A stretch of 64,000 nucleotides of DNA, from NCBI RefSeq assembly GCF_040954835.1, contig NC_090698.1, positions 74,506,284 to 74,570,283 of the forward strand, given 5' to 3'. The DNA comes from Lepisosteus oculatus. Its lineage: Eukaryota > Chordata > Actinopteri > Semionotiformes > Lepisosteidae. Numbering within the stretch: position 1 is the stretch's first letter; each line of letters opens with the position of its first letter. Shown piece after piece: positions 45,373-59,535 of this stretch. The notes under the pieces were generated by a model. That model ran no database searches. It was not told the origin of the DNA and saw nothing but the letters and a program-made list of their open reading frames with translations. The translations under genes and the position numbers were made by a program.

Positions 45373-46234
45373 TCACATCAGCCCCAGGATGGACTCGTCC
45401 CAGAGCTTCTCCTCCTCTGTTCTGCTGTCCACCTCCTCCTTCTTCTCCCTCTTCTCCTTCCGGTGTTTCCATTTCTTCTGCCTGTGCTTCTCCTCCTTCG
45501 GCCCCTGGCTCGGCCTCTCCTCTCCCTCCTCCCGGCTCTTCTCCGGCCTCTGCCGATCCTGCTTCGCCAGCTCCTGTCTCTTCCTCCTCTTGTGCCTGGT
45601 CTCCTCCTCCTCCTCCCCCGGGTCCGAGCCCCCCCTCGCCCTCCTCTCCCTCTTCCTCTTCCTCCTCCTGCTGCTCTCTGCCCTGCTGGAGCTGCCGCTG
45701 GACTCCTCCTCGGACCCGGGGCTGGACAGCTCTTGGCTGCTCTCCCGGAGCTGAGCCCGTGCTCTGTGTGGGGGGCACCCCCGATCGCCCGCAAGGGGCG
45801 CGGGGAGGAGAGGATTCAGTCGCTCTTCAAACTGGGGGTCCCAGCTCTCAGATGGGAACGCAGGGGCCCATGGAGGCCCCTCAGGACCCCTTGGCCCAAA
45901 TTGGCTCTGTCCCAGGAGAGGAGGACAGCAGCGGGGACCCCAGGGTGGCCCACGGCGCTGTGGCCCCGGGCCGGGCCGGAGCGGACGGCTCCTGGGAGCG
46001 CAGCCCCTGACACCGCCCCGCCGCAGGGGGGCGCCCTGGGTCGAGAGCCCCTGCGTGCCGGCGGGGGGGGGGCCGGGCTGGAGCAGAGCCCCTGCGCCCG
46101 GCGGGGGCCCGTCCCCGGCCGCCTGGCCCAGCCCCCGGGCCCTCTGCTCCTGGATGTAGTCCGCCAGCTCGTCCTGGAAGGACCCGTACACCTTCCTCCG
46201 CGCGCCCTGCACAGGCGCGGCCGCCCCCGGCTCC
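45373..46234 (-). CDS. zmat1: zinc finger gene exon 7 (KRCC1-like C-terminal half)
   Basis: 862 nt from the acceptor TTCCCGCAG to a TGA at 45373-45375. Encodes the [18 protein letters not shown] box, a low-complexity linker, an Arg/Lys/Glu-rich predicted coiled region and the terminal [10 protein letters not shown]. Several long open frames on both strands here are shadows of this GC-rich exon. Confidence 0.92.
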
Positions 46235-58200: not shown

Positions 58201-59535
58201 GTCTCTCGAAGAGCTCGGGGACGAGCCGAAGAGAACCCGCGGGAAGCGTTACCCGAGAGCCTGCGCCCAGCCGGCCAGGGCGCGGGGAAGCCCACACGCT
58301 GCCCCTCACCGCTCACAGCCTGCACACACCCCTCGTGACCAACAAGACTGCGGAGGAGACGTCTTCCCCCGGGCGGGCGGGCTTCACACCCAGCCGGGGC
58401 TCCGGGCTCGGGCGGAGGGCCGCCCTGCCCCTTTAGGCTCCAAGTGTGCTGCTGGCATCGACGGTCCAGTTCGGACAGTCACTCGGAGAACACAAACGCG
58501 TGATCGCACACCAGCTACTTCCTTCTGCCTGCAGCCGGGGGCTCGGTTCCGACCCACGAGCAGCAGCGCCGGGAACCCTCATTCGGAACCGTGATCAATG
58601 CGCGGGCATTTCTTCACGGAGCTCAGGGGGAGACCCGGGGCACCCCAGTGAAGCTCTGGGATTTAGGCAGGCACCCCAAAAACCGCCTCATGAACACCTC
58701 GTGCGAGGACTTCAAAACTTCAACACCGGGCTGCCGGCACCTTCCTGGAGTCAGGAGAACAGACGAACTAGCGAAAACTGGTCTTTTCTTCCCCCTCCCC
58801 CAGAGCTCAAACTTTCGTCGCACCGCGCCGGTCAGGGTGCCCCCGGCAGGGCCGGATCCAGCCGAGTCCGGAACCGAACCGGACCCCAGCCCAGCGCCGC
58901 CCCCACCAGTTACCGACCCGCTGGGTCACCTGACCCCGTCCTGAGGTGATACTGTCGAGGGCGCGTACGACTGGCTTCGGTGAAGTTTTTAACGTCGTTA
59001 TGTCGACCTGGTACCGCCTGCAGGGGATGACAGGAAGGCCGTGGGCACTTCTCACCCACAGACACTGAACCGACCCCCCCCGGACCGCAGCCCCGCGTCC
59101 AGATTGTGTGGGTTTGCGCGACAGACAACAGCAGCACCAGCAGCAACAACAAACATTTCTTTCCATTTTAAAGAAAAAATGAAGAGAAATCGGACCCACT
59201 CAATCTACGCAGGGCTCGGGGAGAAACGGGACCGGCTGGCCTCTGCAGTGTCTGTGGAGAAACCGCGGCGCCCGAGGGAGAAGACTCCACACTCCCCTGC
59301 GAGTCTCTCCACCCACTCCCACGGGCGGCCTGGTCCGCGGCCGTGGGGCCGCCACTGATCAAAGCTTTATTTCCTCCACTTTCACGTTCTCTCTGAACTC
59401 ACCTCGGCTCTGGGCAATATTGGTGTTTTGTGTGTTTTTATGGGCCTCGGCTCCCGCTACGGAGCTCGAGTGAGAGTGACTCTGCTGCGCCAGCGCCTCC
59501 GCCAGCTGCGGGATGAAGGTGATCCCCGGCTCCAT
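45373..59535 (-). CDS. zmat1: Matrin-type zinc finger protein, ZMAT1/KRCC1-like, seven-exon model (571 aa)
   Basis: Coding exons: 59403-59535, 50061-50164, 49634-49729, 49288-49450, 48118-48378, 46699-46795 and 45373-46234. All introns are GT/AG with matching phases, and the total is 1716 nt. Four U1/matrin-type fingers follow Cx2Cx12Hx5H: Cys61/Cys64/His77/His83, Cys122/Cys125/His138/His144, Cys207/Cys210/His223/His229 and Cys260/Cys263/His276/His282. A conserved box [20 protein letters not shown] (about 299-318) follows. Next come a Pro/Gly-rich linker, a highly charged Lys/Arg/Glu segment (about 450-555) and the terminal [13 protein letters not shown]. The last two motifs are those of mammalian KRCC1 and the ZMAT1 C terminus. 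Matrin-type fingers typically bind structured or double-stranded RNA, so a nuclear RNA-associated role is plausible but inferred. Extra exons within the 9.2-kb first intron are possible. Human ZMAT1 is somewhat longer (about 638 aa). Confidence 0.85.
46699..46795 (-). CDS. zmat1: zinc finger gene exon 6 (finger 4)
   Basis: 97 nt between TTTCTCTCACTCAG and AATCA|GTGAGT. Encodes [20 protein letters not shown] then MRGNKHQN. Confidence 0.92.
47281..48090 (-). repeat. Decamer minisatellite, 81 units without an indel (intron 5)
   Basis: Consecutive 10-bp units of the TGGGGCTCAG type (variants TGGGGATCAG, TGATGAACAG and others) fill 810 bp in perfect register. A higher-order repeat of 270 bp is visible, with the AGAGAAGCAGTAGGGCTCAA block at 47331 and again at 47601. 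The array ends 28 bp from the exon 5 donor. Confidence 0.97.
48118..48378 (-). CDS. zmat1: zinc finger gene exon 5 (Pro-rich linker and finger 3)
   Basis: 261 nt between CTTGTGATTTCAG and CAGCA|GTACGA (a weakish donor, but the phase fits). Encodes an Ala/Pro-rich linker and [20 protein letters not shown] then RKHQRSAAR. Confidence 0.9.
48402..49280 (-). repeat. 36/37-bp minisatellite, about 24 units (intron 4)
   Basis: Two interleaved unit types share GAGCGTGCTGGGACAGGGAG. One ends with a GGGTCTCT block (37 bp) and the other with an AGGTCC block (36 bp). The array occupies nearly all of intron 4 and is free of stops in the gene's frame. Confidence 0.97.
49288..49450 (-). CDS. zmat1: zinc finger gene exon 4 (finger 2)
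   Basis: 163 nt between GTGTTCACAG and CAGACAG|GTACTG. Encodes [20 protein letters not shown] then [11 protein letters not shown]. Confidence 0.93.
49634..49729 (-). CDS. zmat1: zinc finger gene exon 3 (finger 1, second part)
   Basis: 96 nt, phase 0-0, between GTCGCACCACAG and TTCCAG|GTACAG. Encodes [16 protein letters not shown] and a basic linker. Confidence 0.9.
49790..50025 (+). repeat. 52-bp minisatellite, about 4.5 units (intron 2)
   Basis: Units begin GAGTCAGGCAGGGCAGAGTG and recur at 49790, 49842, 49894, 49946 and 49998. Confidence 0.95.
50061..50164 (-). CDS. zmat1: zinc finger gene exon 2 (finger 1, first part)
   Basis: Between GCTTCTTTCTGCAG and TACGAG|GTAGGT. Encodes [19 protein letters not shown], which joins in phase 0 to GKKHTQKV of exon 3 to complete the finger. 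Confidence 0.9.
50501..50673 (+). mobile_element. tRNA-derived SINE (intron 1)
   Basis: Third copy of the family at 24.1 and 42.9 kb. A degenerate B box (AGTTTGTATCC) is present. The 3' part is shortened before AAAGACAAATTCCT. Confidence 0.85.
50674..51075 (+). mobile_element. L2-like LINE 3' end (intron 1)
   Basis: Encodes the pol C terminus ([20 protein letters not shown], then [10 protein letters not shown]), followed by a 3' UTR and an AATAAAGTGATCTCTGATCT tail. The coding frame shifts at the start of the piece. Confidence 0.8.
51076..53244. other. Unassigned intron 1 sequence
   Basis: Minus-strand open frames near 51464-51966 lack a recognisable domain. A GATAATAAAGTATCTATCTG LINE-type tail remnant lies near 52583. 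Nothing else recognised. Confidence 0.4.
53245..54275 (+). mobile_element. CR1-like LINE fragment, plus orientation (RT core to 3' end)
   Basis: Starts at the element position encoding a [18 protein letters not shown] block. It includes [18 protein letters not shown] (about 53735-53792), a catalytic box mutated to FADG, and the [10 protein letters not shown] and PVRPHLEY blocks. Frameshifted and inactive. Confidence 0.8.
53379..53493. repeat. 39-bp perfect inverted repeat with 24-nt interruption in one arm
   Basis: Left arm 53379-53417 (starting CACTTTGTGTCCATTGCTGC). The right arm consists of 53431-53449 and 53474-53493, which match perfectly. A 24-nt insert (53450-53473) partly duplicates the arm. 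It sits inside the CR1-like fragment. Confidence 0.9.
54276..55210 (-). mobile_element. CR1-like LINE fragment, minus orientation (upstream part)
   Basis: On the minus strand it reads toward a block equivalent to SNYRPVSK, then a degenerate HL...GFRKGR region. It ends at the same element position where the adjacent plus-strand fragment begins. The 5' part (about 54893-55117) is Lys-rich, as expected upstream of the RT. Confidence 0.65.
55211..56714. other. Unassigned intron 1 sequence
   Basis: No gene or repeat recognised. Confidence 0.35.
56715..56900 (+). mobile_element. CR1-like LINE 3'-end fragment (intron 1)
   Basis: AAACTGAGAACAGGAGGTAT, TGGAACAAGCTGCCCAGCCA and CAGCTGGATGAGATAATGGG blocks are shared with the other 3'-end copies. 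Confidence 0.7.
56901..59402. other. Intron 1, with CpG island toward the promoter
   Basis: 57820-57985 contains three copies of a CTGGTCCAGGAGGGGGCGCT block. 58000-59400 is increasingly CpG-rich and open in several frames without domains. It is consistent with a CpG island extending into the first intron of the zinc-finger gene. Confidence 0.5.
59403..59535 (-). CDS. zmat1: zinc finger gene exon 1 (start codon)
   Basis: ATG at 59535 lies in a strong context (AAGATGG). 44 codons ([20 protein letters not shown]...) end in phase 1 at CCGAG|GTGAGT, a near-perfect donor. Its phase fits exon 2 and makes the whole model a multiple of three. It lies in CpG-rich sequence, as expected for a housekeeping-type promoter. 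The link to exon 2 rests on phase and orientation rather than homology. Confidence 0.6.

Follow-up and report, generated by a model that had tools for sequence, protein, structure and literature searches.

Where does KRCC1 (lysine-rich coiled-coil 1), a human protein whose biology was called elusive in 2022 (PMC9638924), come from, and how is it related to ZMAT1? The question is raised by one gene in a stretch of 64,000 nucleotides (nt) of Lepisosteus oculatus DNA (assembly GCF_040954835.1, contig NC_090698.1, forward-strand positions 74,506,284 to 74,570,283), referred to below as the window and numbered from its first letter. The gene encodes, in one protein, an array of four zinc fingers and a C-terminal half with boxes of the SFQDEL and LWDESILG types, such boxes being presumed for ZMAT1. 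We lean slightly towards reading it as a ZMAT1/KRCC1-family gene with four JAZ/ZNF346-type fingers at the position of KRCC1, of which KRCC1 would be a finger-less remnant and ZMAT1 a relocated copy.

Anatomy of the fingered gene

The gene runs on the minus strand from an ATG at 59535 to a stop codon ending at 45373 and comprises seven exons with 1716 nt of coding sequence, that is, 571 codons and the stop, uninterrupted by internal stop codons. The exons are as follows.

59403..59535, minus strand: exon 1, with the ATG at 59535-59533, encoding residues 1-44 and ending one base into codon 45, in GC-rich and CpG-rich surroundings
50061..50164, minus strand: exon 2, with the start of finger 1
49634..49729, minus strand: exon 3, with the final residues of finger 1, followed by a basic linker
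49288..49450, minus strand: exon 4, with finger 2 at 49420-49352
48118..48378, minus strand: exon 5, with finger 3 at 48256-48188 and a stretch rich in proline; of all the splice sites, its donor scores lowest
46699..46795, minus strand: exon 6, with finger 4 at 46775-46707, the best zf-C2H2_jaz stretch (residues 258-283), with a weak match in the PDB
45373..46234, minus strand: exon 7, with the entire KRCC1-like half, namely, the SFQDEL-type box (46182-46153), the C-terminal end (45420-45376) and the stop codon (45375-45373)

From first to last, the exons measure 133, 104, 96, 163, 261, 97 and 862 nt and are separated by introns of 9238, 331, 183, 909, 1322 and 464 nt, all six with GT/AG borders and with outgoing phases 1, 0, 0, 1, 1 and 2. 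The start codon has A at position -3 and G at position +4, and the observed/expected CpG ratio is 0.74-0.89 across the start region (58.5-59.7 kb) versus 0.32 in intron 1 (50.2-57.0 kb). Splice sites were scored with rough position weight matrices and ranked against all GT or AG dinucleotides on the minus strand of the window; 8 of the 12 fell within the top 10%. The four lower-ranked sites were the exon-3 acceptor (percentile 80.1), the exon-4 donor (89.8), the exon-5 acceptor (83.5) and the exon-5 donor, GCA/gtacga (69.6), and because the latter ranks lowest, the junction between exons 5 and 6 is the least certain part of the model. As predicted from the DNA sequence, the seven-exon gene is a genuine member of the ZMAT1/KRCC1 family.

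All four fingers have the form C-x2-C-x12-H-x5-H (residues 61-83, 122-144, 207-229 and 260-282; hereafter F1 to F4), and all 16 zinc ligands are present. Uninterrupted matches to this pattern number three in the six frames of the window, whereas 20 first-order Markov sequences gave 0.25 on average and never more than 2; the one finger outside this count, F1, spans 50117-49718 and is split by intron 2. Among Pfam families, zf-met scored 91.3 bits (cut-off 21.2) in four stretches with an E value of 3.2e-26, and zf-C2H2_jaz scored 64.8 bits (cut-off 22.6) in three stretches with an E value of 6.6e-18 and its best stretch at F4, zf-U1 staying under its cut-off (19.4 versus 22 bits). A sequence search of the PDB with residues 1-285 returned six distinct matches at E values of 1 or less, and all beyond the top two had E values of 0.12 or more. 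The first of these, ZFa (1zu1), aligns ungapped over 98 residues from F1 through the linker to F2 (E value 3.2e-24), with identities of 14/23 for F1 and 17/23 for F2, and F3 matches ZNF346 (2mkd; E value 1e-8), with 16/23 positions identical to the solved ZNF346 F3. Therefore, by its Pfam and PDB matches, the array is of the JAZ/ZNF346 type. By homology, the fingers are predicted to bind double-stranded RNA (dsRNA).

The C-terminal half lies wholly within exon 7. Between a 10-residue box of the SFQDEL type (residues 303-312) and a conserved 15-residue C-terminal end (WD.SIL type) lies a middle part rich in Arg, Pro and Glu, in which basic residues form clusters, among them RRRKRKR and KRRKR; the tail consists of 13.9% R, 12.9% P and 12.2% E. 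For this half, no Pfam family was matched at an E value of 1 or less and no solved structure in the PDB at an E value of 10 or less. The original prediction of seven phase-compatible exons encoding four fingers, the box and a terminal motif was thus confirmed, its span of 45373-59535 running exactly from stop to start. The terminal motif is present and extends two residues further than had been proposed, and the term matrin-type is better replaced by JAZ/ZNF346-type in view of 1zu1, 2mkd and zf-C2H2_jaz.

Relation to known proteins and position beside a cd8-type gene

The human KRCC1, ZMAT1, ZNF346, CD8A and CD8B sequences used for comparison are presumed, unverified versions, and the results obtained with them are leads only; the corresponding blastp runs were made with the low-complexity filter on, which masked part of the C-terminal middle. 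With what we take to be human ZMAT1, the fingered protein shares C-x2-C-x12-H-x5-H fingers, a box of the SFQDEL type and a similar C-terminal end, and F1 and F2 are identical to the presumed first and second ZMAT1 fingers at 18/23 and 19/23 positions, respectively. The presumed ZMAT1 carries three SFQDEL-type boxes, whereas there is one here. The presumed human KRCC1 has one SFQDEL box and a nearly identical end and aligns with the fingered protein at these two ends only (21 residues at 67% and 15 residues at 80%); it is finger-less in this presumed form, whereas the gene described here encodes four fingers and a tail that is rich in Arg, Pro and Glu, not in Lys. Between the presumed sequences of KRCC1 and ZMAT1, the alignment extends over 257 residues at 65%, whereas the fingered protein aligns with either of them mainly at the two boxes. 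Thus, if the presumed sequences are right, the split between KRCC1 and ZMAT1 is much younger than their split from the fingered gene.

With ZNF346/JAZ and ZFa, the protein shares fingers of the JAZ type, as seen in the ungapped match over F1, linker and F2 and in the match of F3 to the solved structures (1zu1 and 2mkd). What we take to be the ZNF346 sequence has four fingers in the same order, lacks a KRCC1-like half and aligns with the finger region at 35% over 242 positions (E value 6e-41). A four-finger array, common to the presumed ZNF346, would be the older state. A pattern scan of viral contigs with exon 4 gave 16 matching stretches and no relatives. The fingered protein is a member of the known ZMAT1/KRCC1 group and not a new kind of protein.

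Human ZMAT1 is described as having three U1-like fingers, versus four here, and its gene lies at Xq22.1 rather than beside CD8B (PMC8988381). Research on ZMAT1 and research on KRCC1 appear to run separately. Of 5.39 million papers searched, none names both, and among the papers listed for either gene with related terms we found none that treats their relation, although subscription papers and gene-tree databases may contain it; passages of PMC3900645, PMC4269413 and PMC11203038 do not state it. Peptide strings from the presumed KRCC1 and ZMAT1 had no match in the papers searched.

A published human gene order places KRCC1 close to CD8A/CD8B, as the original prediction had it. At human 2p11.2, a list that we assume to follow chromosomal order gives RMND5A, CD8A, CD8B, a series of pseudogene, RGPD, PLGLB and non-coding entries, and then KRCC1, FABP1, SMYD1, THNSL2 and FOXI3 (PMC10742694), with KRCC1 thus coming after CD8B. 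In sharks, chicken, mouse and human, CD8A and CD8B are reported between RMND5A and 'FOX12/13', which we read as FOXI2/FOXI3, and in zebrafish the surroundings of CD8 are not conserved (PMC10140343); zebrafish smyd1a is linked with thnsl2 and fabp1 (PMC3900645). In the window, a cd8-type gene lies to the left of the fingered gene and on the same strand, represented by two exons.

27799..28149, minus strand: V-set exon of a cd8-type gene, closest to CD8B (V-set E value 2.5e-12 for the surrounding open reading frame)
23752..23844, minus strand: transmembrane exon, probably of the same cd8-type gene, with a hydrophobic stretch (WGCGPLVLWPLAGGLSALAVAWVCTLYYFS) flanked by an acceptor AG rich in pyrimidines and by the donor GTGAGT

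Because the published human order puts KRCC1 after CD8B, the fingered gene sits where KRCC1 would be expected on the CD8B side. It is by position, judged from the CD8B flank, the counterpart of KRCC1 and by structure ZMAT1-like. Its far (5') flank in the window consists of a retroelement, followed by the end of the window, beyond which SMYD1 and FABP1 would lie.

In the six frames searched, SFQDEL, FQDEL and WD.SIL have a single occurrence each, inside this gene; hence, a second, finger-less krcc1 bearing these boxes is not present in the window. Between the cd8-type and the fingered gene (28.25-45.37 kb, six frames, stops read as X), no Pfam domain scored above its cut-off, although domain-less exons would escape such a scan, and one sub-threshold match was taken as chance. 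The proposal that the fingered gene is the locus counterpart of KRCC1 is partly supported, by the CD8B flank and by the lack, within the 64-kb window, of a separate finger-less krcc1 near cd8 in both the box search and the interval scan. As for the claim that the gene stands beside cd8b, a cd8-type neighbour with V-set and transmembrane exons is present, and its identity as CD8B is a lead obtained through presumed CD8A and CD8B sequences.

A proposed origin of KRCC1 and a possible function

In the reading towards which we lean, mammalian KRCC1 would be what was left of a fingered gene at its old position after the finger exons had dropped out, and such a dropout fits the gene because the KRCC1-like half occupies the single exon 7. 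In mammals, ZMAT1 would have arisen as a copy that moved elsewhere and retained three of the four fingers. The data are best read as showing KRCC1 to be derived by loss of the fingers, an interpretation that is plausible and strengthened on one flank, if unproved.

Human KRCC1 is enriched on chromatin and associated with CHK1, and it supports both the autophosphorylation of CHK1 and homologous recombination (PMC9638924). ZMAT1 is mainly nuclear, yields peaks in chromatin immunoprecipitation sequencing and acts on SIRT3/p53 (PMC8988381); in osteoclasts it has been reported to repress the transcription of TRIM46 (PMC13170258). Given these published roles and the JAZ-type fingers, the fingered protein is most likely a nuclear adaptor that would bind RNA or other nucleic acids, the binding being suggested by homology. 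Structured (double-stranded) RNA may be what the fingers recognise. The basic C-terminal half may direct the protein to the nucleus and to chromatin, and its two terminal boxes, both short and conserved, may bind checkpoint or chromatin partners, as in the checkpoint role of KRCC1. A bolder version of this reading, which we put forward tentatively as possible rather than probable, holds that KRCC1 is what remains, still in place, of a gene for a four-finger dsRNA reader located beside CD8 since before the split between fishes and tetrapods, that the RNA-reading half of this gene was lost, that X-linked ZMAT1 is a relocated copy with one finger lost, and that the ancestral protein would have linked structured RNA directly with the ATR-CHK1 checkpoint. 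If a fingered form indeed occupies the KRCC1 position, the origin of an orphan human protein would be explained, the two terminal boxes would be predicted to give ZMAT1 and KRCC1 common partners, and RNA could be involved in the checkpoint role of KRCC1.

Several observations weigh against descent of KRCC1 from a fingered gene at this position. Adjacency to the cd8-type gene is known from one window and from one synteny flank, and the exon-5 donor is weak. F4 taken alone matches solved JAZ-type fingers weakly (best 1zu1, E value 0.00025), and the finger that ZMAT1 would lack, F3 or F4, differs by method: the presumed third ZMAT1 finger corresponds to F4 by identity (9/23 versus 7/23 for F3) and by BLAST but is placed under F3 by MAFFT. 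The papers on ZMAT1 emphasise DNA binding (PMC8988381). In addition, the published dog KRCC1 variant L97R (PMC4269413) has L as the reference at residue 97, versus R in the presumed human sequence, so that this sequence or the register may be off.

Another account, which we regard as rather unlikely, makes the fingered gene the zmat1 orthologue, ancestrally located beside CD8, and KRCC1 a partial copy of the last exon of ZMAT1 that landed or stayed near CD8B. It draws on the ZMAT1-like finger anatomy and on F1 and F2 being closer to the presumed ZMAT1 (18/23 and 19/23) than to the solved ZFa (14/23 and 17/23), but it requires a chance landing beside CD8B, where the fingered gene stands in this window. 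That ZMAT1 and KRCC1 are partners from an old whole-genome duplication, in which case the fingered gene would be krcc1 with its fingers and a second, X-type zmat1 would lie elsewhere in the genome, is distinctly unlikely: a likeness of 65% over 257 residues between the presumed KRCC1 and ZMAT1 looks too close for an old split in a fast-changing tail. Assignment of the gene to the ZNF346/JAZ group rather than to ZMAT1/KRCC1 would accommodate the full-length alignment of the finger region with the presumed ZNF346 and the matches to 1zu1 and 2mkd, but the SFQDEL-type box and the C-terminal end are absent from that ZNF346 sequence, which makes it highly improbable. Finally, a pseudogene or a chance assembly of exons, to which the weak exon-5 donor, the minisatellites filling much of introns 4 and 5 and the retroelement close upstream might point, is hardly credible with all phases fitting, 571 codons without an internal stop and 16 of 16 zinc ligands kept. 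We thus retain the in-place origin of KRCC1 from a fingered ZMAT1/KRCC1-family gene as the reading slightly to be favoured.

The cd8-type gene, repeats and other features of the window

The V-set and transmembrane exons probably form one cd8-type gene, of which no other exons were found in the window. The V-set exon scored 17.6 standard deviations above shuffled sequences against what we take to be CD8B and 7.9 against the presumed CD8A, as a lead only, and this higher score is why a cd8b identity is favoured. A phmmer search of the PDB with the V-set open reading frame gave 1019 matches at E values of 0.01 or less; the 60 matches listed were variable fragments of antibodies or fusion proteins containing such fragments, and the search thus could not separate CD8 from other V-sets. 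The cd8a gene probably lies beyond the left end of the window: the Cys-Trp and DxGxYxC patterns combine at one place in the window, the V-set exon reported above, and Pfam found no second V-set in any of the three frames of the minus strand over 1-28.0 and 28.25-43.25 kb or, on the plus strand below 28.2 kb, in the three single open reading frames covered there. Near 27.08 kb (27078; LYCRHR; TCGTVFAFVCNELYCRHR), a reading of the plus strand resembles a CD8A transmembrane segment, but it lies on the strand opposite to cd8b, no V-set exon was found to accompany it and it is probably due to chance.

On the other side of the fingered gene, a long terminal repeat (LTR)-type retroelement occupies 59680-64000 on the plus strand, starting, as read by eye, about 150 nt upstream of the ATG and in the opposite orientation. 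It contains open reading frames at 60031-61029 and 60906-63998; the latter runs off the window and carries protease, reverse transcriptase, RNase H and integrase domains. The element may sit in, or displace, the promoter of the fingered gene.

Two introns of the gene are rich in tandem repeats. Intron 4 (48379-49287, minus strand) is largely a 37/73-base-pair (bp) minisatellite; its 909 nt are divisible by 3 and open in the frame leading from exon 4 to exon 5, so that retention would add 303 repetitive residues. A second frame is open as well, and one stop codon interrupts the third; because such openness in other frames is expected of a stop-poor minisatellite, we did not call intron 4 coding. 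Intron 5 contains, at 47281-48090, a GGGGATCAGT-type minisatellite with about 40 copies of 20 bp.

Elsewhere in the window, a sequence resembling 5S rRNA at 40436-40554 (plus strand) matches the full length of the model at 45.1 bits (gathering score 38) and is perhaps a 5S-derived short interspersed nuclear element rather than a gene. At 1217-2110 (plus strand) lies a reverse transcriptase remnant of the long interspersed nuclear element (LINE) type (RVT_1, E value 4e-12) together with an ALKBH8_N match, of a kind often seen at the end of the open reading frames of fish LINEs.

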